This document shows positions 7,786 to 31,562 of a stretch of DNA of 34,660 nucleotides, one piece after another. Origin of the DNA: Gammaproteobacteria bacterium (GTDB lineage Bacteria; Pseudomonadota; Gammaproteobacteria; Steroidobacterales; Steroidobacteraceae). The stretch spans positions 1 through 34,660 of the forward strand of contig PKXS01000040.1 in the NCBI GenBank assembly GCA_003132425.1, given 5' to 3'. The notes beneath the pieces were generated by a model. That model saw only the letters and a program-made list of their open reading frames with translations. It was not told where the DNA came from and made no database searches. Position 1 is the stretch's first letter, and every line of letters starts with the position of its first letter. The position numbers were made by a program, and so were the translations under genes.

Positions 7786-9228
7786 CTACGATGTGCCTAC
7801 CGTCACCGGTATCGCGGCGCTTTGCGCTGTATTTGCCTGCGCCGCTGCGGCCCGGGCGGCGGCCGGCGCGGTCTCGGGAGGTAACGCCAGAATGACGCGA
7901 AGCCCCGGATTCTGATCGGCCAATTCCAGAGTACTGCCGTGCAGCTTTGCCACCGCCTGCACGAGGCTCAAACCGAGACCGACGCCCGGCGTCCCGCGGC
8001 TCGAGTCGCCGCGATAGAATCGCTCGACCACTTTGGTTTTCTCCGCATCGACAATGCCCGGACCGTTATCCGCCACGGCAATTTCCGCTGTGCCGTCGCT
8101 GCGCCGCCGGACAGCGACGCCGATCACGCCGCCCTCGGGGGCGTACTTGAGCGCATTGTCGATGAGATTGCTGAGCGCCTGGGCGAGCAGCACCGGGTCG
8201 CCCGGCACGGGCAGCGGCCCGTCCGATTGGAACGTCAGATCGATATTCTTGAGTTCCGCGGCCGGGGCGTAGAACTCCACGGCTGCGGCCGCGACCTCGG
8301 CCACGTCGAGCGGAACGAATCCGGAACGGCGCATGCCGGCATCGATCTCCGCGAGCCGCAGCAGCGCGTCAAAGATTCGGATAACGCGGTCGACGTCGGC
8401 GACGGCGGCATCGATCTCCGCATAAGTCTCCTCGGTCGACGGGCGGATCAACGCCAGTTCCTCGAGGCGCGAGCGCAGCTCGGCGAGCGGCGTGCGCAGA
8501 TCGTGCGCAATCGAATTGGAGACGTTTCGCACGCCGTGCACCAACAGCTCGATCTGATCCAGCATGCCGTTGATGGTGCGGGACAGAGTATCGAGCTCGT
8601 CGCCGCTCATATGCGTCGGCAATCGGTGCTTCAGATCGCCGTGAATGATCGCCGATACGGTTTGGCGGATACTGTGGATCCTCGACATCAACGCGCGACG
8701 CGTCAACAGACCGCCCACGAGACCGACGATCATCAGGACCGCCACGGCGGCGGACAGACCGTACCAGAAGCGTGTCTCCAACGGCGCAAACAGTTTGTTA
8801 TCCCTTCCCACCAGTAGGTTGTAGCTACCCAGCAACGCGACGTGCACCAGCGCCGTCTCATTCGAGCGATCGCCCGCTCCAATTTTGATGGTGTAAGTCC
8901 CTGGCGTGACCGGCACGCTGCGCGGCCAGGCGGCGAGGTTGCCGGCCAACGGGCGCATTGAGGCATCGGTCAGCAGCAGGATGCGTTCGCCGGCGATCTG
9001 CATGCGGACGCGGGCATCGATATTGCGCTGCAAGCCGGTTGCGCCGTCGCGGCGGAAGATGTCCGAGAGCCGCTGTGCATCGGATTGCAGGATCTCGCCG
9101 CGGCCCTCCTGGATCGTGACATGCCATGCATACCAAAGAGGCGCGGCAAACAGCACCAGCGCCGCGATCCCCAGGATGACATAGCCCAAGGCGAGCGAAA
9201 CGGCCGAGGAGCGCATGACCTTAATCAT
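7786..9228 (-). CDS. Sensor histidine kinase of the efflux operon
   Basis: A 480-residue inner-membrane kinase. It has TM1 (about 12-35), a ~120-residue periplasmic sensor region, TM2 (about 155-177), HAMP (about 178-230), a HisKA dimerisation helix with phospho-acceptor His242 in SIAHDLRTPL, and HATPase_c with N-box NLIDNALKY (354-362), DNGPG (387-391) and GVGLGL (415-420). The Ala-rich tail after residue 452 lies outside the known domains. The start ATG overlaps the response regulator stop by 8 bp, with GGTGA as ribosome site inside that gene, so the two are translationally coupled. It is the last gene of the operon; the signal is probably a compound the pump exports. Confidence 0.95.
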   Translation of the reverse strand: MIKVMRSSAVSLALGYVILGIAALVLFAAPLWYAWHVTIQEGRGEILQSDAQRLSDIFRRDGATGLQRNIDARVRMQIAGERILLLTDASMRPLAGNLAAWPRSVPVTPGTYTIKIGAGDRSNETALVHVALLGSYNLLVGRDNKLFAPLETRFWYGLSAAVAVLMIVGLVGGLLTRRALMSRIHSIRQTVSAIIHGDLKHRLPTHMSGDELDTLSRTINGMLDQIELLVHGVRNVSNSIAHDLRTPLAELRSRLEELALIRPSTEETYAEIDAAVADVDRVIRIFDALLRLAEIDAGMRRSGFVPLDVAEVAAAAVEFYAPAAELKNIDLTFQSDGPLPVPGDPVLLAQALSNLIDNALKYAPEGGVIGVAVRRRSDGTAEIAVADNGPGIVDAEKTKVVERFYRGDSSRGTPGVGLGLSLVQAVAKLHGSTLELADQNPGLRVILALPPETAPAAARAAAAQANTAQSAAIPVTVGTS

Positions 9229-9901
9229 TTGCGCTCACCGTGTAGCCCGCATTGCGCACCGTATGCAGCAGCGGGCGCTCGAATTCGGCATCGATCTTTT
9301 GCCGCAATTTACTGATATGCACATCGACCACATTGGTTTGCGGATCGAAGTGATAGTCCCACACATTCTCCAAGAGCATGGTGCGTGTGACCACTTGTCC
9401 GGCGTGACGCATGAGGTACTCGAGTAGCTTGAATTCGCGCGGCTGCAGCGCAATCGGCCGGTCTCCGCGGGTGACCTTGCGCGTCAATGGATCCATATGC
9501 AAGTCTCCCACGGTCAGCGGCGTCTCGTGGTTGATGCCCTGCGCACGGCGATGCAGCGCATCCAGACGCGCCAATAATTCGCCGAACGCAAACGGCTTGG
9601 TCAAATAGTCGTCGCCGCCGCTGCGCAGACCGCGAATACGATCGTCGACCTCCGATAGTGCGCTGAGAATCAGGATGGGAGTGCGCTTGCCGGCTTTTCG
9701 CAGCACTTCGATGATGGCCAGGCCGTCGATCTCGCCCGGCAGCATCCGGTCCATGATGATCACATCGTACGGTTCGCTCGCCCCGAGGAACATACCATCG
9801 CGTCCATTGCCCGCGTGATCGACGGTATGTCCCGCCTCCTGCAGGCCCTTAACGACGAACTGGGTGACCCGTTCGTTGTCTTCGACCAGCAATACTTTCA
9901 A
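9221..9901 (-). CDS. OmpR/PhoB-family response regulator of the efflux operon
   Basis: A 226-residue two-domain regulator. The receiver domain (1-115) has acidic Glu7-Asp8, phospho-acceptor Asp51 in IIMDRMLPG and the conserved Lys in LTKPFAF. The DNA-binding domain (about 125-222) is a winged helix with LQPREFKLLEYLMRH and the VDVHISKLRQKID recognition helix. Initiation is at TTG 9901, whose last two bases start the upstream RND gene's TGA stop (TTGA overlap). No better in-frame start exists before the first strand. It should be phosphorylated by the downstream kinase and control the operon, possibly through the TGTTAA direct repeats upstream of the first gene. Confidence 0.95.
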   Translation of the reverse strand: MKVLLVEDNERVTQFVVKGLQEAGHTVDHAGNGRDGMFLGASEPYDVIIMDRMLPGEIDGLAIIEVLRKAGKRTPILILSALSEVDDRIRGLRSGGDDYLTKPFAFGELLARLDALHRRAQGINHETPLTVGDLHMDPLTRKVTRGDRPIALQPREFKLLEYLMRHAGQVVTRTMLLENVWDYHFDPQTNVVDVHISKLRQKIDAEFERPLLHTVRNAGYTVSAND

Positions 9902-12900
9902 GGCGTCTCCCCCATCGGATGCCCCGGCTCCGGCGAGGGCTCGGCCGATTCCGGCCCAACGTGCGTGCGGCGGCGGCGCTTCAGCCAGAGGCTGAACTGA
10001 TCCAGGTACAAATAGATGACAGGTGTCGTAAATAGAGTCAATGCCTGGCTCAGGACCAGTCCGCCGACCATCGTATAACCCATTGGCTGGCGGAGCTCAG
10101 ACCCAGTACCGCGGCCCAACGCCAGCGGCAAGGAGGCGAGCAACGCGGCCATCGTGGTCATCATGATGGGTCGAAAGCGCAGCAGGCACGCTTGACGGAT
10201 CGATTCACGCGGCGACAAGTGCTGTTGACGCTCTGCTTGGATCGCGAAGTCCACCATCATGATGCCGTTCTTCTTTACGATACCGATGAGCAGAATGATG
10301 CCGATCAGCGCCATCACCGACAGTTCGATATGAAATATCAGCAATACCAATAGCGCGCCTACTCCCGCCGAGGGCAGCGTGGAAAGAATGGTCAGCGGAT
10401 GAATGTAGCTTTCATAGAGCATGCCGAGGATGATGTAGACAGCCACTAGCGCCGCAAGAATCAGGTACGGCTGGCTCTTCAGAGAGCTCTGAAAGGCTTG
10501 TGCGGTGCCCTGAAAGCTGCCGTTGATGGTCGCCGGCAGGTGCATCGCCGCAGACGCCCGGTTGATCGCATCGACCGCATCGCCCAGCGCCGCTCCCGGC
10601 GCGAGATTGAAGGACAGCGTGACCGCGGGGAATTGTCCCTGATGGCTGATCGACAAGTAGGTGACGTGCTGCGTGTCGTACTTGGTCATCGCCGAGAGCG
10701 GCACCATCTGGCCGGTCAGGGGAGATTTCAGATACAGCTTCTTGAGCGAGTCCGGATCGGATTGCAGTGCCGGCGTAATTTCCAGAATCACGTGGTAGCT
10801 GTTGGCCTGAGTGAAGTACTGCGCCGCCTGTCGCTGGCCGAAGGCATCGTAAAGTGCCTGATCGATCGCGGCCGGCTGAATGCCGAAGCGTGCCGCCTGG
10901 TCGCGGTCGATCTCCAACGACAGCATGCCGCTGGCGGATTGCTGATCGGAGGCCACGTCGCGCAACATCGGCAGCTTCTTTAGCGCATCGAGCAGTCTTG
11001 GTGACCAATCGTTGAGTTCGTTGATATTCGAATCCTGCAATGTGTATTGATACTGAGTGCGCGCCGTTCGGCCGCCGATATTCAGATCCTGCGCCGCTTG
11101 CAGGAACAGCGTCGCGCCGGGCACCTTGGCCAATTGCGGCCGCAGACGGTTGATGATTTGGTCGGCGCTGGCGTCGCGCTCATCGCGCGGCTTGAGCCCA
11201 AGGATGACGAATCCATTGTTGACGGGCCGGCTGCCGCCGAGAAAATTGCCGTAGCTGGCGACGCCGGGGTCCCGCGCAACGACTGCCATGAGCGCGGTCT
11301 GACGGCGCACCATCTCGTCGAAAGAAACGTCCTGCGGTGCATCGGTCAGGCCGACGATGATGCCGGTGTCCTGCTGCGGGAAGAAACCCTTGGGAATGTA
11401 GATGTAGAGAAGGACGCTGGCGGCGACCGTGACCAAGAACACCATCAAAGTCGCGCGCTGATGATCAAGCACGAAGTCCAGGCCGCGGGTGTACCAGGCG
11501 AGGATTTTGTCAAAAGCCCTTTCGACCGCGAGATAGGCTTTGCCGTGCTTCGCGTGCTTTTCATCGCGCAGGAACAGCGCGCACATGGTGGGCGAGAGCG
11601 TCAGTGCGACGAACGCCGAGACGGCGATGGTCATCGTCATGGTGATCGCGAATTCCCGGAACAACCGGCCGATAATGCCTCCCATCAGCAACAGCGGAAT
11701 GAATACTGCGACCAGCGAGATGCTGATGGACATGATGGTAAAGCCGATCTCGCTGGCGCCCTTCAGCGTCGCCTCCAGCGGAGTCAGACCGGCCTCGATG
11801 TGCCGGTAGATGTTCTCCAACATAACGATCGCGTCGTCCACCACGAAGCCGACGGCTATTGTCAACGCCATCAGCGACAGGTTATCGAGACTATAGTGAA
11901 GCACGTACATCATGGCGGCGGTGCCGAGCAGCGCCAGCGGCACGGTGACGCCTGGAATGATGGTCGCCCAGGCGTTGCGCAGAAACAGAAATATCACCAG
12001 CACGACCAGAACGATGGTGAGTGCCAGGGTGAACTCCACATCGTGCACCGAGGCCTGGATCGTGGTCGTGCGATTGGCGATCGTATCCACTTTGATCGAG
12101 GGCGGCACCGAGGCAAGCGCGTGCGGCAGCAGCGCCTGAACCCGCGACACCGCGTCGATGACATTCGCACCCGGTTGTTTGTAGATTAGCAGCAGGATCC
12201 CGTGATGGCCGTTCTGGGATCCCGTCATCAGGGAGTTTTCGGGACCGTCGATCGCGACTCCGATGTCGCGGATGCGCACCGCGGCGCCATCCTTGTAGGC
12301 CACGACCACATCGTTCCAAGGCGCCGCCTCCATCAGCTGATCGTTGTCGTAAATCGTCAGACTGCGCTTTGGCCCATTGATGGAGCCTTTCGGTGCGTCC
12401 ACCGTTGCCGCCGAGATGACATTGGCGACATCTTCCATTTGCAGGCCGAGCGCCGCCAGCTTGACGGGATCGATCTGCACGCGAACGGCCGGCTTTTGTT
12501 GGCCGCCGATCGTCACTTGTGCGATCCCGGGGATCTGCGAGACCTGCTGCGCGAGTATATTCTCGGCATAGTTGTCGACGGTGCTGACGGGCAGCACTTC
12601 GGAGTGCACCGCCAAAATGAGGATGGCAGAATCGGCCGGGTTGACCTTTCGGTAAGTGGGAGGGGTCGGCAGGTTTTTCGGCAGCTGGCCGCCGGCGGCA
12701 TCAATTCCTGTTTGAACATCTTGCGCGGCCGCATCGATGTTGCGATCCAGATCGAATTGCAGAGTAATCTGAGTGTAGCCGAGCACATTGGTCGAGGTCA
12801 TCTGCGATAACCCCGATATTTCCGCGAACTGATATTCCAGGGGCGCGGCGACCGAGGAGGCCATGGTCTCCGGGCTGGCGCCCGGCAGTTGTGCCGAGAC

Positions 12901-23729: not shown

Positions 23730-24209
23730 CTAATTCGGCGCCGGGATGGTCTCTACGCCGTTGCGTCGATACACCATGCCGCCCTTCATGACGAAGCTGA
23801 CGTGCTTGAATTGGTCGGGATCGTCGAGCGGATTGCCCGCTGTCGCCACCAAGTCCGCGTAGCGTCCGGCTTGGACGGATCCGACGCGATCCGCAGCGCC
23901 GAGCAGGTCCGCCGCGTTTCGCGTGGCCGCGAACAGGGCGGACATATGGATATGGCAGTCGATGAATCCCGGCATCACCGTGGCCGTCGATAGGTCGATG
24001 AGATCTGCGCCCGCCGCGGATACGAAGCCGGGCTCGACGGACAGGATTTTATCATCGCGCACCAATATTGAGACCTGCCGCCGTGGCGCGCCGGAGATTC
24101 CGTCGATCAATGTACCGGCGTGGATGAGCAGGTCCTTGGCTCCCGCAGCGGCTGCGCTGAATACGGCGACCAAGCAGAAGAGTGCTCGCCATCTTGAATT
24201 TAGTTTCAT
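23730..24209 (-). pseudogene. Amidohydrolase with its catalytic core deleted in frame
   Basis: A 159-residue open frame with a signal peptide (1-24) and a normal amidohydrolase beginning: LLIHAGTLIDGISG, the small beta-sandwich, then VMPGFIDCHIH (metal-binding His86, His88). Within four residues it jumps to the normal C-terminus of the same family: ATRNAADLLG (from 95), DRVGSVQAGRYADLVA and FVMKGGMVYR. About 260-280 residues of the TIM barrel that usually lie between are missing, with the lysine, later histidines and aspartate of the metal site. The frame is kept, so a short exported protein may still be made, but not an active hydrolase. It lies 3 bp after the TauE-type gene. Confidence 0.8.
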
Positions 24210-24212
24210 ATA

Positions 24213-25076
24213 TTAGTCCTGGGCACGTGCGGCGGATCGCAGCATGGCGAACGCGGCGTACGCGATCACCACGATCACCAGCCAGCGCAGGGCGGTCAGC
24301 GGCAGGCTCTTCACGATGTACGCCGCGATCAGCACTCCGACGACGCCGCCGAAAGCCAGGCCCAACGAGGGGCCCCAGGCGAAACGGCCGGTCTGAAAGA
24401 ACCGCAAACTGGCAACCGGCTGAAGCATTGCGCACGCCCCCATCATGATCGGAAAAGCGGCGATCGGATGCATGCCCAGCAGCGCTAGGGTGATCATGCA
24501 GGGCGCGTACAAGCCGATTCCGACGCTCATGAGAGCACCCAGAACAAAATTGATCCCCACGGCCACGCCGAATTTCCACCCCGCGAGGCTCATGGCGATT
24601 CCTCCGCCCGGGAGCGCTCCCAAATTGATGGCCGCGAAGACCGTTCCGGCAATCAACAATGCGATCCCCATGGCGACCTGGATCGCGCGGCGAGGCAGGC
24701 GCGCGACCACACCCGCCCCGAGCCAGGCGCCGGCCGATGCGCTAGCGATCACGGTCACGAGCAGGACCGGGTCTACAACGATCGCGGTGACGAAGATCAA
24801 CGATTCGGCGATCGCGGACGGCGTATGGCCGACGTTCAGGGTACCGGGGATCAGCTCGTCGGGTACCAGGTGCCGCAACTTGTAGATGGCCGTGGTGGGT
24901 GCGAAGGATCCTATCCCCAGCGCGTCGAAGAAATCCGTGACGAATCCGATGAGTATCTCGATGGGCCGCGGCCAGCGCACCTCCTTGCTGCGCGCGGCCG
25001 CGCGAATGCCGCCGTAAATAAAGGCAAGCGCGATCAATCCTAGGGCGACATAAAAGGCGACAAGCGCGGCGTTCAT
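24213..25076 (-). CDS. TauE/SafE-family permease
   Basis: A 287-residue membrane protein with about eight hydrophobic segments in two related halves, as in the TauE/SafE (sulfite/organic anion exporter) family. The first half holds GFVTDFFDALGIGSFAPTTAIYK and the second GALMSVGIGLYAPCMITLALLGM, the paired re-entrant motifs. Members export sulfite, sulfoacetate or other anions, or take up small carboxylates; the substrate here is not known. It is divergent from the amine dehydrogenase operon across about 107 bp, so shared regulation is possible. The amidohydrolase remnant follows 3 bp after its stop. Confidence 0.85.
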   Translation of the reverse strand: MNAALVAFYVALGLIALAFIYGGIRAAARSKEVRWPRPIEILIGFVTDFFDALGIGSFAPTTAIYKLRHLVPDELIPGTLNVGHTPSAIAESLIFVTAIVVDPVLLVTVIASASAGAWLGAGVVARLPRRAIQVAMGIALLIAGTVFAAINLGALPGGGIAMSLAGWKFGVAVGINFVLGALMSVGIGLYAPCMITLALLGMHPIAAFPIMMGACAMLQPVASLRFFQTGRFAWGPSLGLAFGGVVGVLIAAYIVKSLPLTALRWLVIVVIAYAAFAMLRSAARAQD

Positions 25077-25183
25077 AGGGGGAATATACCCTTTGACGGG
25101 TGAGAGTATTCAGCTTGAAGTGGTTGACGTACACTCGACAAAGCGCGCGGCGGCTGCTGCCATCGAAAAAGTGCGGGGGGTTA

Positions 25184-26338
25184 ATGAGAACAATTTTCCT
25201 GAAGGCGACGCTCGTCGCGATATCAGCGTTATCGGCGGCTTCGGTTGCATTTGCCGCGGATTACCCGACGCCGTTGCCGGCCGAGACTGTCCCCAAGGTT
25301 GAGACTTTACCGGCCCACTACCCGACGACGTGGGCGTTTCTCAATGTCACCGCCAATAGAATCGAGCTGCGAAATGTCGGCAGCGACGGGCGCGAGGTCA
25401 AGGGTGAACTGCAGGCGCGCGATTCGGCGACTCTGCTGGTGGCCGACAAGCGGCCGGAGATTTACGTTGCCGACACCGTCTGGTCTCGAGGCGTGCGCGG
25501 CACGCGGACCGATTTCATTACCGTGTACGACAAGCAGACGCTGAATGTCGTGGGCGAGATCGTACTGCCGGGGGCCAAGCGCGGACTGATTACGCCGATG
25601 GAAGGCATGTTCGCGTTCACCGACGACCAACGGATGGCGCTGGTGTTCAATTTCACTCCGGCCTCATCGGTCACGGTGGTGGATTTGGTGAAGCGCACAG
25701 TCCTCGGCGACGTGGATATCCCGGGCTGCTCGCTCGTCTACCCAAGCGGCGAGCGCGGCTTTTCGACCCTGTGCTCGAGCGGCTCCCTATTGAGCGTGCG
25801 GCTCGACGCCCACGGTGCGGTGTCGGGCCGCAGCGAATCGAAGGTGTTCAACCTGCTCGATACCGATCCGCTGTTCACTCAGTCGGCGGGAATCGGCGGC
25901 GTGCGCTACTTTCCGAGCTTACACGGCCGCGTGCAGCCGATCGACATGAGAACCGACGACGTCAAGATTCTCCCCGATTGGCCGCTGGTGTCGGCCGCGG
26001 ATGCGACAGGAAACTGGCGGCCGAGCGGCTGGCAACTCATCGGCAGCGACGAGCAAAACTTGCTGTACGTGTTGATGCAACCCAATGCCCGTGAGGGAAT
26101 GCACAAGAACCCCGGCACCGAAGTATGGGTGTTCAACGCCGCTTCCAAGACGCGCGTCAAAAGACTGCGACTGGTGAGACCCGGCTCGTCGATCGCGCTG
26201 ACCCACAGCGCCGAGCCCCTGCTATTGGTGTGGGCGCAAGACCACCTCGATGTGTACGACCCGCGTGACGGCCGCTTGCTGCGCACCTTAGGGTTAGCGG
26301 GCATCCTCGCGCGGTTGCAAATCGAGCCGATGCGTTGA
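25184..26338 (+). CDS. aauB: TTQ amine dehydrogenase large subunit (aromatic amine dehydrogenase-like)
   Basis: A 384-residue periplasmic protein with a signal peptide (about 1-24, ending AFA). The rest is the seven-bladed propeller of the MauB/AauB family. Characteristic stretches are EIYVADTVWSRGVRGTRTDF, DVDIPGCSLVYPSG, FSTLCSSGSLLSVRLD, NWRPSGWQLIG, YVLMQPNAREGMHKNPG (compare MHPDGKEGTHKFP in aromatic amine dehydrogenase) and EVWVFNAASKTRVKR. It binds the TTQ small subunit in an alpha2-beta2 enzyme that oxidises primary amines to aldehyde and ammonia. ATG 25184 has a G-rich ribosome site just upstream; an earlier in-frame start at 25100 would spoil the signal peptide. It is the first gene of the operon. 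Confidence 0.88.
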   Translation: MRTIFLKATLVAISALSAASVAFAADYPTPLPAETVPKVETLPAHYPTTWAFLNVTANRIELRNVGSDGREVKGELQARDSATLLVADKRPEIYVADTVWSRGVRGTRTDFITVYDKQTLNVVGEIVLPGAKRGLITPMEGMFAFTDDQRMALVFNFTPASSVTVVDLVKRTVLGDVDIPGCSLVYPSGERGFSTLCSSGSLLSVRLDAHGAVSGRSESKVFNLLDTDPLFTQSAGIGGVRYFPSLHGRVQPIDMRTDDVKILPDWPLVSAADATGNWRPSGWQLIGSDEQNLLYVLMQPNAREGMHKNPGTEVWVFNAASKTRVKRLRLVRPGSSIALTHSAEPLLLVWAQDHLDVYDPRDGRLLRTLGLAGILARLQIEPMR

Positions 26339-26340
26339 CT

Positions 26341-26892
26341 ATGAGTTCGGCATCCGCGCTCGGAGTGATGCAGTTGCTGGCAACTCAGTCAGGCGCGTTC
26401 ATGGCGGCGCTGCTCATCGCTTCCTCGGCCCATAAGTTGATCCGGCGTGCGCACACCCAGGCGGTGGTGCAACAGTTCGCGGGCGTGCCGCAAGGATTGT
26501 CGGCCTATGCGGTTGCGGCGGTGTCGCTGGTCGAGATGCTCGCGGGTGTTCTCTTGATCGTCCCGGCGCAGCGCGCGACGGGCGCGGTGCTCGCGGCGCT
26601 CATCTGGGGCAGCTACCTGGGGCTGATCCTGCGCGCCATTGCCCAAGGCCGGCGCAACGTTGATTGCGGCTGTAGCTTCGGCGCGGCACAGCGTCCCCTG
26701 GGAGTCTATCAAGTGGCGCGCAACGCGGTGCTGTTGGGTCTCGCGACGGCGGTTGGTTTGGAGTCGGCGGCGAACGTCAGTGCCGCGGTGCCTGCCGCGC
26801 AGTTGCTGGGGGCCTTGACGTTCTTGGCATTGTACTTGGCAATCGATCAGGCGATGGCCTTGCAGCCGATGCGCTCTGGAGAAGCGCTATGA
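26341..26892 (+). CDS. mauE: MauE/DoxX-family membrane protein for amine dehydrogenase maturation
   Basis: A 183-residue protein with four membrane helices and the conserved NVDCGCSFG loop (Cys109, Cys111). In mau and aau clusters this family is needed, with MauD, for a stable small subunit, probably by supplying oxidising or reducing equivalents across the membrane for its six disulfides. I chose ATG 26341, which follows the large-subunit stop by 2 nt; a TTG at 26335 overlaps that stop and is an alternative. The last codons overlap the mauD start (ATGA). Confidence 0.85.
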   Translation: MSSASALGVMQLLATQSGAFMAALLIASSAHKLIRRAHTQAVVQQFAGVPQGLSAYAVAAVSLVEMLAGVLLIVPAQRATGAVLAALIWGSYLGLILRAIAQGRRNVDCGCSFGAAQRPLGVYQVARNAVLLGLATAVGLESAANVSAAVPAAQLLGALTFLALYLAIDQAMALQPMRSGEAL

Positions 26893-27503
26893 ATTTCTTG
26901 GTGGCCTCGCAAATCTTGCTGTGGCTGGGATTGATGGTGTTGGCCTTGGTCTGCCTGGTGCTGGCGCGGCAGGTCGGCGTATTGCATCAGCGCCTCGCGC
27001 CGGCGGGAGCGCTGGCGCTGCCCCAGCCGCTGAAAGTTGGCGATCCGGCGCCGCAGCTGGCGGTGACCGCCCTGGACGGATCGACGTTGAAGCTCGGCGG
27101 CGTGCGCGACGGACGCAGTCAGTTGTTGTTGTTTCTGTCGCCCGATTGCGCGGTGTGCGAGGCTTTGTTGCCTGCGGTGCGTTCGGCGCAAGCGGCCGAA
27201 CGCGAGTGGCTGGACGTCATTTTGGCCAGTGACGGCCAACTCGACCAGCATGTGGCGTTCGTGCGCGAGAAAGGTCTGGGAAAATTTCCCTACGTCCTGT
27301 CCGAGCACCTGGGGCGCAGCTACGGAGTTTCCAAGCTTCCGTACGCCGTGCTGATCGATGAGGCCGGTAAATTATCGTCGACCGGCCTGGTCAACACGCG
27401 GGAACATTTGGAAAGTCTATTCGTCGCCAAGGAAACCGGCATCAGCAGTATTCAGCAGTTTCTCAAGTTACGCGGGCAAAGGCGTGCATCGTCGGGAGAA
27501 TGA
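26889..27503 (+). CDS. mauD: MauD-type thioredoxin-like amine dehydrogenase accessory protein
   Basis: A 204-residue membrane-anchored periplasmic protein. The N-terminal helix (about 5-26) is followed by a thioredoxin fold with KVGDPAPQLAVTALDG and the redox pair SPDCAVC (Cys87, Cys90), then SKLPYAVLIDEAGKL around the cis-proline. MauD is required for disulfide formation or folding of the small subunit; without it that subunit is unstable (family knowledge). The start overlaps mauE by 4 bp. Its stop codon lies within the ribosome site and spacer of the small-subunit gene, so all four structural and accessory genes are translationally tight. Confidence 0.9.
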   Translation: MNFLVASQILLWLGLMVLALVCLVLARQVGVLHQRLAPAGALALPQPLKVGDPAPQLAVTALDGSTLKLGGVRDGRSQLLLFLSPDCAVCEALLPAVRSAQAAEREWLDVILASDGQLDQHVAFVREKGLGKFPYVLSEHLGRSYGVSKLPYAVLIDEAGKLSSTGLVNTREHLESLFVAKETGISSIQQFLKLRGQRRASSGE

Positions 27504-27505
27504 GA

Positions 27506-28072
27506 ATGGCCCAATTCGATCATTTGGCGGAAAAAATGCTTCGCGGCTTTGCGAGCCGCACCTCGCGGCGCAGCGTCTTCAGCGTGCTGGGCGGTTTTCT
27601 CGCCGGCGCCGCGACCCTGCCTCTGCTGCCGGTGGCGCGAGCGGCGGAGGGTGGGCCTGCCTCCAAGCCCGCGTTCAACCCCGAAGAGATGCCGCCGCTC
27701 GCCACCGGCAACCCGCAGGACCCCGGCGATCCATCGAAGTGCGATTACTGGCGTTACTGCGCCATCGATGGCTCGTTGTGCAACTGCTATGGCGGCACGG
27801 TCACCTCCTGTCCGCCCGGCACGGAAATGTCGCCGATTACCTGGATCGGGACCTGCCGCAATCCGGCCGACAAGCGCAACTACATCATTTCATACAACGA
27901 TTGCTGCGGCGGCGTGGCGTGGGGACGCTGCGCCTGTCAGAACAACAAAGGCGACCGTCCGGTGGTGCGGCCGCAGAACAACAATGAGGTGACCTGGTGT
28001 TTCGGCACCGAGAGTCAGTCCTATACCTGCACGGTCTCGGTGATACTGGGTGTCGCGCTAGAGCAGAAATAG
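27506..28072 (+). CDS. aauA: TTQ amine dehydrogenase small (catalytic) subunit
   Basis: A 188-residue precursor with a twin-arginine signal (SRRSVFSVLGG). The mature part matches MauA/AauA: it starts CDYWRYCAIDG, and all twelve disulfide cysteines are present (79, 85, 92, 94, 102, 117, 133, 134, 142, 144, 165, 175). The two tryptophans that become the TTQ cofactor are Trp113 (ITWIGTC) and Trp164 (VTWCFG). The catalytic aspartate is Asp132 in YNDCCG, and Asp88 matches the second conserved acid. GGAG lies 7 nt before ATG 27506 but only 2 nt before ATG 27500, so the later start is chosen. It is fully equipped, so the enzyme should be active. Confidence 0.93.
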   Translation: MAQFDHLAEKMLRGFASRTSRRSVFSVLGGFLAGAATLPLLPVARAAEGGPASKPAFNPEEMPPLATGNPQDPGDPSKCDYWRYCAIDGSLCNCYGGTVTSCPPGTEMSPITWIGTCRNPADKRNYIISYNDCCGGVAWGRCACQNNKGDRPVVRPQNNNEVTWCFGTESQSYTCTVSVILGVALEQK

Positions 28073-28073
28073 C

Positions 28074-28541
28074 ATGATGTTGCCAATGCGTCTGTGCGCG
28101 GCTGCCGTGGCGATCGGCCTATTGTCGCTTGGCGGCGGTGCCTTCGGGCAAACGCCGCTGCCGGCCGGCGTCGACAATCCACAGCGCGCCTGGCAGGACT
28201 GGACCCTGAATTGTCAGGGATGCCATCGACCGGACGGCACGGGCACGTCGGCGACGGCACCAAGCCTTGCGGGCACGGTGGCCAAATTTCTCTGGGTTCT
28301 CGGCGGACGCGAGTACTTGGGCCGCGTGCCCGGGGTGGCGACCTCGGCGCTGTCGAGCGCTGATCTGGCCGAGGTGCTCAATTGGATGTTGTGGCGCTTC
28401 GACAAGGAGAACTTGCCGTCGAACTTCCAGCCGTATACGGCGGCCGAGGTGGGCCGGTTGCGCACTCAGCCATTGCGGCTCGAGGCAGCTCCGATGCGCG
28501 CCGACTTGTTGAAAAGAGCCGGCGAGTCCGGACGTCCGTGA
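28074..28541 (+). CDS. Periplasmic monohaem cytochrome c
   Basis: A 155-residue exported protein: signal peptide (about 1-25), then WTLNCQGCHRPDGTG with the covalent haem site Cys47-Cys50-His51, and a class I c-type helix SSADLAEVLNWMLWRF. A methionine at the usual sixth-ligand spot is not obvious (the loop reads VPGVATSALS), so the distal ligand may be unusual. The position directly after the small subunit matches the small cytochrome gene (orf-2) of the Alcaligenes faecalis aau cluster. It probably accepts electrons from the dehydrogenase or from an azurin-type carrier. It starts 1 nt after the small-subunit stop and ends in a GTGA overlap. Confidence 0.88.
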   Translation: MMLPMRLCAAAVAIGLLSLGGGAFGQTPLPAGVDNPQRAWQDWTLNCQGCHRPDGTGTSATAPSLAGTVAKFLWVLGGREYLGRVPGVATSALSSADLAEVLNWMLWRFDKENLPSNFQPYTAAEVGRLRTQPLRLEAAPMRADLLKRAGESGRP

Positions 28542-30592
28542 AGCCGAATGACTCGCGAGACGAAGTTTTACTGACGACTTGTCCGCGCGATTGCTACGAC
28601 ACTTGCGGCATGCTGGTGCACAAGCGCGACGGCGTCGTCACGGCGGTTCGGGGCAATCCCGCGCATTCAGTCAGCCGCGGCGCGCTGTGCGGGAAATGCT
28701 CGACTGCATACAATCGCGAATGGCGCGACCCTAAATTCCGGTTGACTCAGCCCATGCGCCGCTCGGGCGCCAAGGGAGCGGGGCGCTTCGAATCCATTTC
28801 TTGGGAGACCGCGTTTAAGGAGATCGCGGGGCGGCTGCAGAAAATCGTCGCATCGCACGGCGCGCGCTCGATACTCAATGCCCATTACACGGGCACGATG
28901 TCGCTCCTAGCCGGCATGGCGCCAATGCGCTTTTTCAATCGATTGGGCGCGACGGAAGTCGCACCGGACACGATTTGCAATATGGCGGGGCACGTGGCGC
29001 TGCGCTACATGTACGGCACATCGGTCGATGGTTTCGATCCTCGAGCGGCAGAGGAGGCGGCCTGCATCGTGGTTTGGGGCGCCAATCCTCATGCGTCGGC
29101 GCCGCACGCCCATGAATACTGGCTGCCGGAGGCACGCGGCGAGGTAGTGGTCATCGACCCCATTCGTACGCCGACTGCCGCGCAGGCCGACATTCATTTG
29201 CAGCCGTTCCCCGGCAGCGACGCCGCATTGGCATTCGCTCTGTTGCACGTGATTCACCGCGAGGGCCTGATCGACTCCGATTTCATCGCGCATCATGTGC
29301 ACGGCTGGGAAGAACTCGAGCCCATGCTTGCCGATTGCAGCCCTAAGTGGGCAACCGCCGTCACCGGGGTGCCCGCGGCGCTCATCGAGAAAGTCGCAGT
29401 GTTGTACGCGCGCGGTCCTTCTCTACTGTGGCTGGGCCAGGGCCTGCAGCGGCAGGTCACCGGCGGTAATGTCATGCGTGCCTGCGCGCTATTGCCGGCG
29501 GTGACCGGCAATCTATGCAAGCCGGGAGCAGGATTTTTGTACCTGAACGGCAATCTGCGCCAGCGGGGCATAGACGAGGAATACCTGGTCGGGGCGCATT
29601 TGTCCGCCGCCGGCGCAGCGCCTTCGTTAAGTCATATGGACCTTGTGCAAGTTCTGGAAGCTCCGGCGCGCTCCCGCGCGCTAGTCGTTTGGAATATGAA
29701 TCCAATGGCATCCTGCCCACAGCAGTCGCGTTTGCGCCGAGCATTGCAGCGCGAAGACCTGCTGACCATCGTCCTCGACCTGTTCGCCACCGACACGACC
29801 GCGATGGCCGACTATGTACTGCCGGCGGCGAGCTTCCTGGAGTTCGACGACCTCATCGCCTCATATTTTCATTTGACCCTGTCCGCGCAAGTCAAGGTCA
29901 TGGAGCCGGTGGGCAGCGCTTTGCCGAATCAGGAAATCTTTCGCCGCTTGGCCCGAGCCATGAACTTTACGGATTCGGAGCTGCAGGAAACCGACGCCCG
30001 GATGCTCGCAACCTTAATGGAGCGCAGCGGACTTGGGCTTGATTTTCAGTCACTCGCCGCGCGAGGGTCGATTTGGGTCCCTGATCAGACGGCCGTGCAA
30101 TTCGCGGACCGCGTCTTTGCGACCCCGAGCGGCCGCATTGAGATTGCTTGCGCGCAGGCGCAGGCGGATGGATTGCCGCGACTTCCGCAATGCTGGAGCG
30201 ATGCGCGCCCCACTGCGGGCCGCTTGCGCTTGCTGTCCCCGGCCAATGCATGGCTGCTCAATACCAGCTTCGGCAACGTGCGGCAAATCGGCGCGCGACT
30301 GGGCGAGGCCACGATCGCCCTGCATCCCGCGGATGCCGGGGAGCGGCAACTGTCGGACGGCGATCACGCCCTGGTGCACAACGAGTGCGGTCAACTGGAA
30401 CTCCGGGTCGTGATCTCGGACGAGGTGCCGCGCGGCGTCGCCCTCACGCACAAGGGCCGCTGGCTATCGGCCGATGCGGCGAGCGCCAACGTCAACGTCT
30501 TGAATGCCGGGCGCAAGAGCGACATGGGAGAGAGCACGGCGGTGCACAGCGTGGAGGTCTCGGTCCGGGCGCGCTCCGCCGGCGTCAATTGA
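28538..30592 (+). CDS. Molybdopterin oxidoreductase (DMSO reductase superfamily), cytoplasmic
   Basis: A 684-residue enzyme. An N-terminal iron-sulfur motif CPRDCYDTC followed by GALCGKC gives ligands Cys15, Cys19, Cys23 and Cys51 for one [4Fe-4S]. The bis-MGD body follows: WETAFKEIAGRL, DTICNMAGHVALRY (Cys as a possible Mo ligand), IVVWGANPHASAPH, VVIDPIRTPTA, and a C-terminal MPT-binding barrel (about 560-680). There is no signal peptide, so it should stay in the cytoplasm. GTG 28538 overlaps the cytochrome stop (GTGA); an upstream in-frame ATG at 28382 lies inside the cytochrome gene and is unlikely. The substrate is unknown; oxidation of the aldehyde or acid produced from the amine is one idea. 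Confidence 0.87.
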   Translation: MKPNDSRDEVLLTTCPRDCYDTCGMLVHKRDGVVTAVRGNPAHSVSRGALCGKCSTAYNREWRDPKFRLTQPMRRSGAKGAGRFESISWETAFKEIAGRLQKIVASHGARSILNAHYTGTMSLLAGMAPMRFFNRLGATEVAPDTICNMAGHVALRYMYGTSVDGFDPRAAEEAACIVVWGANPHASAPHAHEYWLPEARGEVVVIDPIRTPTAAQADIHLQPFPGSDAALAFALLHVIHREGLIDSDFIAHHVHGWEELEPMLADCSPKWATAVTGVPAALIEKVAVLYARGPSLLWLGQGLQRQVTGGNVMRACALLPAVTGNLCKPGAGFLYLNGNLRQRGIDEEYLVGAHLSAAGAAPSLSHMDLVQVLEAPARSRALVVWNMNPMASCPQQSRLRRALQREDLLTIVLDLFATDTTAMADYVLPAASFLEFDDLIASYFHLTLSAQVKVMEPVGSALPNQEIFRRLARAMNFTDSELQETDARMLATLMERSGLGLDFQSLAARGSIWVPDQTAVQFADRVFATPSGRIEIACAQAQADGLPRLPQCWSDARPTAGRLRLLSPANAWLLNTSFGNVRQIGARLGEATIALHPADAGERQLSDGDHALVHNECGQLELRVVISDEVPRGVALTHKGRWLSADAASANVNVLNAGRKSDMGESTAVHSVEVSVRARSAGVN

Positions 30593-31514
30593 CGGGCGCG
30601 CGATTGCGCGAATCACGCCCGTAGTAATCGGGATAGTCGGCGCTCAGGCCTTTGAAGCGGCGGTGCATCCAAAGATATTGCTCCGGCACGCGACGAATCT
30701 GCGCTTCCAGCAAGCCATTGAAGCGCGCCGCGTCTTGGGCCGCATCGACCCCGGGGAAGCCCTCGAGCGCCGGTCCGATGAAGACGCGATAGCCGGCGGT
30801 GCCGGGTAGACGCTCTGGAAAGTACGTCAACACGGCGGCGCCCGAGATGCGTGCCAATCGAGAGGTTGCGGTGGTGGTCGCGGCCGGAATTCCAAAAAAG
30901 TTCACCATGGCCGCGCCCTTGTTGCGATAGCTTTGATCCGGAGCGTACCAAACGGCTTCATTCTTCTTCAGCGCGCGAATCATGGCGCGAATGTCATCAT
31001 GGGCTATCGGGTTGCCGTGGCGGCAGAAACTGGTGTACATGGTGTGCGACAGAAGGGCGTTTTTCGTCGGGCGATAAACCACATTGAGCGCAACGACAGT
31101 GCCCAGAATGCGGGTCGCAATCTCGATGGTGGTAAAATGGCCGCCGATCATGATGGCGCCGCGACCCTTGGCGAGCGCTGCTTGCAGATGATGCAGGCCG
31201 TGCACCTCTGCCAGCGCATGCACTTGCCGATCGCTGCTCCACCATGTGTTCGCGGTCTCGCAGAGCGCCATGCCGAGGCTTTCGCAGTGCCGATCGAGCA
31301 ACGCCGCTCGCGCGGCGGCGGACCACTCAGGCATGCAAAGATCGATGTTGCGGCGGGCGATTCGCACATACGCAAGGGGCAGCCGGCGAATGAGGCCGCC
31401 CAACGCGAAGCCGACGCGCCGCTGCGCCGCAAACGGCAACAGCTCCAGGCTGCGCAAGACGAGGAGTCCCAGCCAAGTGAGCCAATACTTTGGGCCAAGA
31501 AGCGCTAGCCGCAT
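30585..31514 (-). CDS. Lipid A biosynthesis acyltransferase (LpxL/HtrB family)
   Basis: A 309-residue inner-membrane acyltransferase. Near the N-terminus is LLGPKYWLTWLGLLVLRSLELLPF, typical of LpxL. The catalytic motif is GGHFTTIE (His-x4-Glu), then VVYRPTKN and WYAPDQSYRNKGAAMVNFFG. It adds a secondary acyl chain from acyl-ACP to the Kdo2-lipid A precursor. An ATG at 31562 would add 16 residues unlike the family; neither start has a good ribosome site. It is convergent with the molybdoenzyme gene, the two stops lying in the 8-bp palindrome TCAATTGA. No other lipid A gene is nearby. Confidence 0.9.
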   Translation of the reverse strand: MRLALLGPKYWLTWLGLLVLRSLELLPFAAQRRVGFALGGLIRRLPLAYVRIARRNIDLCMPEWSAAARAALLDRHCESLGMALCETANTWWSSDRQVHALAEVHGLHHLQAALAKGRGAIMIGGHFTTIEIATRILGTVVALNVVYRPTKNALLSHTMYTSFCRHGNPIAHDDIRAMIRALKKNEAVWYAPDQSYRNKGAAMVNFFGIPAATTTATSRLARISGAAVLTYFPERLPGTAGYRVFIGPALEGFPGVDAAQDAARFNGLLEAQIRRVPEQYLWMHRRFKGLSADYPDYYGRDSRNRAPVN

Positions 31515-31562
31515 CGCGATTGCGTGTGCGCGCCCGACGCTGCCGCCAGTCCCTGGGAACAT

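Follow-up and report, generated by a model that had tools for sequence, protein, structure and literature searches.

The window analysed here (34,660 nucleotides; contig PKXS01000040.1 of the Steroidobacteraceae assembly GCA_003132425.1, positions 1 to 34,660 of the forward strand) carries six same-strand genes, 25184-30592, that encode a tryptophan tryptophylquinone (TTQ) amine dehydrogenase and end in a molybdoenzyme of the dimethyl sulfoxide (DMSO) reductase superfamily, referred to below as Mo. The TTQ operon with its overlapping Mo gene is a real, conserved arrangement that was not met in the open-access literature searched, which yielded no paper on an aau cluster or on a TTQ enzyme together with a molybdoenzyme; a preliminary description of this DNA, which knew of no mau or aau cluster with such an enzyme, agrees with that search. 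In our best reading, Mo would be an optional member of an amine-use gene set that also includes a permease, a gamma-glutamyl-amine-ligase-like gene, a deacetylase, an amidohydrolase and TauE, and would not be a dedicated partner of TTQ enzymes. The six genes are as follows.

25184-26338 (+): TTQ amine dehydrogenase large subunit (H); PF06433 (Me-amine-dh_H), 2.3e-40; Sec-type signal by eye
26341-26892 (+): MauE-like membrane accessory protein; PF07291, 3.4e-22
26889-27503 (+): MauD-like thioredoxin-fold accessory protein with CAVC; TIGR02661, 1.5e-53
27500-28072 (+): TTQ amine dehydrogenase small subunit (L); PF02975 (Me-amine-dh_L), 9.9e-49; Tat-like signal by eye
28074-28541 (+): monohaem cytochrome c (CQGCH), signal peptide by eye; PF00034 (Cytochrom_C), 5.2e-05
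28538-30592 (+): DMSO-reductase-superfamily molybdoenzyme (Mo), 684 aa, GTG start; Molybdopterin (2.5e-41), Molydop_binding and Molybdop_Fe4S4

By their open reading frame (ORF) coordinates, the genes are spaced in order by +2, -4, -4, +1 and -4 bp. The H stop (26338) lies 2 bp before the MauE ATG (26341), the L stop (28072) 1 bp before the cytochrome ATG (28074), and the cytochrome stop (28541) overlaps the Mo GTG (28538) by 4 bp in the sequence GTGA. ORFs, coordinates and families thus agree with the earlier account of a complete TTQ set at -4 to +2 bp spacing, and the overlap and three Pfam domains with its GTGA-coupled molybdoenzyme. A promoter and terminator scan gave 0 promoter-like sites (shuffle mean 1.4) and 5 terminator-like sites (shuffle mean 6.1). 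At the level of sequence, the six genes are supported as a putative operon-like unit.

The cytochrome-Mo junction recurs in two related genomes, G014 and G021, whose Mo proteins are 82% and 80% identical to that of the window and which keep the identical 4-bp overlap, with the Mo GTG on the cytochrome stop. Contig G021:C49 and the scanned locus L079 are one contig (both 145,939 bases, with Mo in the same place), so the junction is present in three genomes, not four. Since the same junction is found in three assemblies, chance adjacency, or a chimeric artefact of a single metagenome-assembled genome, is unlikely. Pairwise dN/dS values for Mo among the three genomes (0.087, 0.092 and 0.101) show a signature of purifying selection on the gene. 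In both relatives an APC-type permease gene overlaps the end of Mo (G014, 11 bp; G021, 4 bp), and beyond it G021 has a deacetylase-family gene in the opposite orientation; in the window, Mo runs into a convergent LpxL gene without a permease.

Positions 25184-28541 are supported as a putative TTQ amine dehydrogenase of aau-like layout. Both subunit families, PF06433 and PF02975, score above cut-off. In an alignment with the methylamine dehydrogenase (MADH) light chain, two Trp of L align to the Trp pair that we take to form TTQ, and the small-subunit catalytic Asp is also present, along with 12 Cys after residue 50; we assume the roles of the Trp pair, the Cys and the Asp from other TTQ enzymes. 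The same alignment and Cys count bear out the small subunit with both TTQ tryptophans and twelve cysteines that had been described. Against PDB sequences, H scores 146.8 bits with aromatic amine dehydrogenase and 117 bits with MADH, and it reaches 137.6 bits with TIGR02658, the MADH equivalog model (cut-off 454.45), whereas L is over the cut-off of TIGR02659 (200.6 vs 196.85 bits); the MauD-like protein is just below that of TIGR02661 (181.1 vs 188.6 bits). The aau-like assignment follows because H is nearer by bit score to aromatic amine dehydrogenase than to MADH and far under the MADH model, while L just passes; MADH proper is ruled out for the large subunit on the TIGR02658 score.

The aau cluster of Alcaligenes faecalis has genes for the large subunit, MauE-like and MauD-like proteins, the small subunit and a small monohaem cytochrome c. 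The window has this B-E-D-A order followed by a monohaem cytochrome c, and its H scores best with aromatic amine dehydrogenase, but its operon ends in the overlapping Mo gene, its neighbours are TauE and LpxL, and relatives have the permease. MauE and MauD are shared with mau clusters. The cytochrome, with a single CXXCH (CQGCH), is the presumed electron acceptor of the TTQ enzyme, and a scan of the nine proteins encoded from 23730 to 31562 found no copper acceptor or further mau gene. In the portion of PMC2680597 available, the mau system of Methylobacterium extorquens AM1 has TTQ subunits as here, but the mau acceptor is a copper protein (amicyanin, or azurin in M. flagellatus) in place of a cytochrome c; H is also far under the MADH model.

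Mo has the Fe4S4, molybdopterin and dinucleotide-binding domains and the fold of the DMSO reductase superfamily. Among 11 aligned Mo sequences (8 with at least 49% identity to the window, counting the window, and three with 37%), Cys15, 19, 23 and 51, the presumed [4Fe-4S] ligands, and Cys147, the presumed metal ligand, are invariant in 11/11, so that all five are shared by the three 37% homologues. In thiosulfate reductase and in four formate-dehydrogenase-type chains (7qv7_S, 9t1s_L, 7bkb_D and 7vw6_A), the position aligned with Cys147 is the one that we take to hold the metal ligand. The residue after Cys147 is Asn (Asn148) in 8/8 sequences at 49% or more, and His in those four chains. As no signal peptide was seen in Mo, the enzyme is probably cytoplasmic. 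Its AlphaFold2 model (mean pLDDT 78.3; below 50 at residues 145-147) matches formate dehydrogenase, Nap, DMSO and trimethylamine N-oxide (TMAO) reductases and others about equally; the predicted structure does not discriminate between reactions. Soluble ‘molybdopterin-dependent oxidoreductase’ proteins belong to the same superfamily, the best plasmid match among the best 20 of 30 records being 38%. A separate 37% homologue is found in the same genus at L153, L154 and L155, each time followed by an identical gene pair (HipA-like and a small protein, by eye).

Two minus-strand genes flank the operon.

24213-25076 (-): TauE/SafE-family membrane protein, divergent from the operon; PF01925, 5.1e-14
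30585-31562 (-): LpxL/HtrB-like lipid A acyltransferase, convergent; PF03279, 7.9e-69

LpxL, which shares 8 bp with the 3' end of Mo, bounds the chromosomal site on the right. Ten loci have TTQ genes to the left of LpxL (window, L150, L068-L074 and L079). Mo is present at three; at four others (L068, L069, L072 and L074) the permease follows the cytochrome without Mo, L071 has only a 53-aa permease piece, and L070 and L073 have neither gene. A wider contig scan, which may not include the records of the genome of the window, found 287 TTQ loci and kept 80, 69 of them with 3 kb or more of sequence downstream of L; one of the 80 (L079) has a Mo match. The coupling stressed by the preliminary description thus holds for 3/10 TTQ clusters at this site and 1/80 in the wider scan. 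At this chromosomal site and within the genus, Mo is an optional gene. Six trees (LpxL, TauE, cytochrome, L, H and permease) were built from the best tblastn piece per locus, with stops as X and gaps removed (the L150 small subunit fills 44% of columns); in none did the Mo-bearing rows form one group (0 to 5% of bootstrap trees), yet the well-supported branches are compatible with a single origin of Mo.

The ORFs were also grouped over 82 loci (the 80 of the scan, the window and L150). Here, as in the neighbourhoods read in G014, G021, G127 and f57 and in the run at L078, genes were picked mechanically as ORFs, mostly after filtering by GC at codon positions, and some of these calls may be wrong. 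Of the 82 loci, the 14 nearest are the window, L150 and L068-L079 and the other 68 are largely from sphingomonads. One aldehyde-dehydrogenase cluster (PF00171) is present at 42/68 distant loci and at 0/14 near ones, whereas Mo is present at 3/14 near loci. At L078 alone (1/82 loci, 1/14 near), a xanthine-oxidase-family molybdoenzyme unrelated to Mo (8584-10707, +) lies 22 bp after the TTQ small subunit; by eye it has a Tat-like signal. The distribution of aldehyde dehydrogenase and Mo fits, and does not show, a possible Mo-dependent replacement for the aldehyde step.

Relatives of Mo at 49-60% identity occur away from TTQ genes (G127, G315, G321, G414 and family f57). Within the family of the window, Mo is found at E≤1e-130 in 4/217 genomes: the window, G014, G021 and G127, the last belonging to another genus and having a 60% identical protein. 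The order sample has Mo in 6/396 genomes at E≤1e-125, adding G315, G321 and G414 (49-51%), which are also the 3/107 genomes with Mo at E≤1e-140 in the family of G315. With 2/398 genomes in the phylum sample at E≤1e-110 (window and G449, 54%), the enzyme is rare overall; in f57, the family of G449, 14/17 genomes carry it. PF02975 is present in G127 and G414, on contigs other than that of Mo. Distant homologues are common, with matches at E≤1e-60 in 22/60 relatives, mostly at 30-40%. Unlike Mo, the ~34-40% homologues in the seven genomes of the genus whose surroundings were read sit on contigs other than those of the TTQ small subunits; in G005, one such homologue and a TTQ gene lie ~23 kb apart on one contig.

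A second amine-type neighbourhood is seen in G127, where Mo lies 51 bp after a glutamine-synthetase-like gene, truncated at the contig start, that also matches the gamma-glutamylputrescine synthetase model at a score under its cut-off. Mo is followed there by a permease of the same kind (69%) and a deacetylase-family gene, and further along by two SDR genes, a class-III transaminase and a second ligase-like gene. These ligase-like, permease and deacetylase neighbours suggest that Mo stays in amine use. The TTQ genes of G127 are on contigs C172 and C4, and the C172 locus carries an FAD oxidoreductase, TauE and a gamma-glutamyltransferase. The ligase-like gene of L078, 61% identical to that of G127, is joined to the TTQ large-subunit gene in the run cytochrome - FAD oxidoreductase - ligase - H - L. 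In f57, a GcvT/FAD sarcosine-oxidase-like gene, so identified by the annotation in L170, is the nearest or second-nearest neighbour of Mo, in the opposite orientation, at 5/13 loci, a weak hint of amines.

We give about even odds to Mo being an accessory single-subunit molybdoenzyme, joined behind the cytochrome of an aau-like TTQ operon, that performs one redox step on an imported amine or its product. The periplasmic TTQ dehydrogenase would convert a primary amine to aldehyde and ammonia and pass electrons to cytochrome c; the permease would bring in the amine or its product; and cytoplasmic Mo would carry out one redox step on the imported compound, most likely the aldehyde or acid product, standing in for the aldehyde dehydrogenase that lies close to many other TTQ clusters. 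It is rather improbable that Mo is specifically an aldehyde (or amine-derived product) oxidoreductase replacing the NAD-dependent aldehyde dehydrogenase in the TTQ pathway of this clade, a reaction class new to the superfamily; if so, periplasmic amine oxidation and cytoplasmic Mo- or W-dependent product oxidation would be joined in one operon. Several points weigh against a pathway role. We know of no superfamily member that is a general aldehyde dehydrogenase, and no electron-partner gene for Mo was found in the operon. At 10/14 near loci, some of which end at contig ends, Mo, the xanthine-oxidase-type enzyme and the aldehyde-dehydrogenase cluster are all absent, and thus the step is not essential. 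PF02975 is present in 86/217 family genomes, all 4 Mo carriers among them, a weak co-occurrence (4/4 vs 86/217, about 0.025), and it was not found in G315, G321 and G449 (3/5 Mo genomes searched). In f57, Mo appears mostly solitary. The dedicated two-enzyme route of the preliminary description is therefore unsupported, with Mo relatives away from TTQ genes or in genomes without PF02975 and with Mo optional in the genus; scattering of Mo without the dehydrogenase among relatives, which that description took as telling against the route, is found in the wider family and not within the genus. The two-compartment aldehyde route would be one among several ways to read the arrangement.

A less probable, still substantial, alternative is that Mo is a general-purpose, usually solitary molybdoenzyme that landed behind the cytochrome and is expressed there as a passenger, with no common pathway. 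Its optional presence at the TTQ site agrees with this, as does f57, where the genes directly on either side of Mo both run opposite to it at 10 of the 13 Mo loci read (of 14), as the downstream one does at 12/13, and where the one genome searched (G449) is without PF02975. Yet a passenger would not readily account for an exact overlap kept in three genomes with Mo 80-82% identical to the window and dN/dS near 0.09, or for the second amine-type neighbourhood in G127 with a permease of the same kind. Mo could instead be a reductase of an N-oxide, hydroxylamine or sulfoxide, making the dehydrogenase's amine from an oxidised precursor; such enzymes are frequent in the superfamily and DMSO and TMAO reductases are among the fold matches, but the metal ligand of those reductases is Ser where that of Mo is presumably Cys, and the operon has no partner reductase gene, which leaves this improbable. 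We consider it very unlikely that Mo is a formate dehydrogenase completing the conversion of methylamine to CO2. The best NCBIfam model by E-value is indeed TIGR01591 (Fdh-alpha, 7e-70), and the top two PDB sequence matches are of formate dehydrogenase type; the score of 235.9 bits (cut-off 666.25) and the pair Cys147-Asn148, where the formate-dehydrogenase-type chains have His, contradict this role, and H does not reach the MADH cut-off. Equally slight is the chance that Mo is an aromatic-ring enzyme (a dehydroxylase or transhydroxylase) with a phenolic amine, or the acid derived from it, as substrate. According to the part of PMC7028382 available, catecholamines are dehydroxylated by a Mo-dependent enzyme of Eggerthella lenta, and the nearest relative of this catechol dehydroxylase class, which has a companion 4Fe-4S shuttle gene, is acetylene hydratase. 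Acetylene hydratase is among the Mo matches (7.2e-30), but it is outscored by formate dehydrogenases, thiosulfate reductase and DMSO reductase, and the operon lacks a 4Fe-4S shuttle gene; by both features Mo is set apart from that class as so described, although no dehydroxylase sequence was part of the direct comparison.

The accessory role in amine use would make Mo a handle on an often solitary family of soluble molybdoenzymes: since it is locked in an operon with a first enzyme of known chemistry, its substrate could be sought among a small number of amines and the products of their oxidation. The arrangement also suggests that TTQ amine pathways may recruit different second-step enzymes by lineage.

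TauE adjoins or shares a run with the TTQ genes in 10/14 of the nearest loci (window, L068-L072, L074, L076, L078 and L079) and was not seen at L073, L075, L077 or L150, the contig of which begins inside MauD; it also stands beside the TTQ locus G127:C172 of another genus (L171 TauE, 64%). Next to TauE in the window, 23730-24209 (-) is an apparent internally deleted amidohydrolase remnant, which matches amidohydrolase N-termini to about residue 90 and a C-terminus over residues 89-148. No MauE or MauD match was found between the large and small subunits at the TTQ loci of close relatives L151 (5718-8244), L072 (446-2745) and L074. Many relatives have two or three TTQ small subunits per genome, and the genome of the window has a second TTQ operon (L003, 6855-10294; G000:C60), with a permease (64%) ~4.5 kb upstream and a ligase-like gene ~2 kb downstream.

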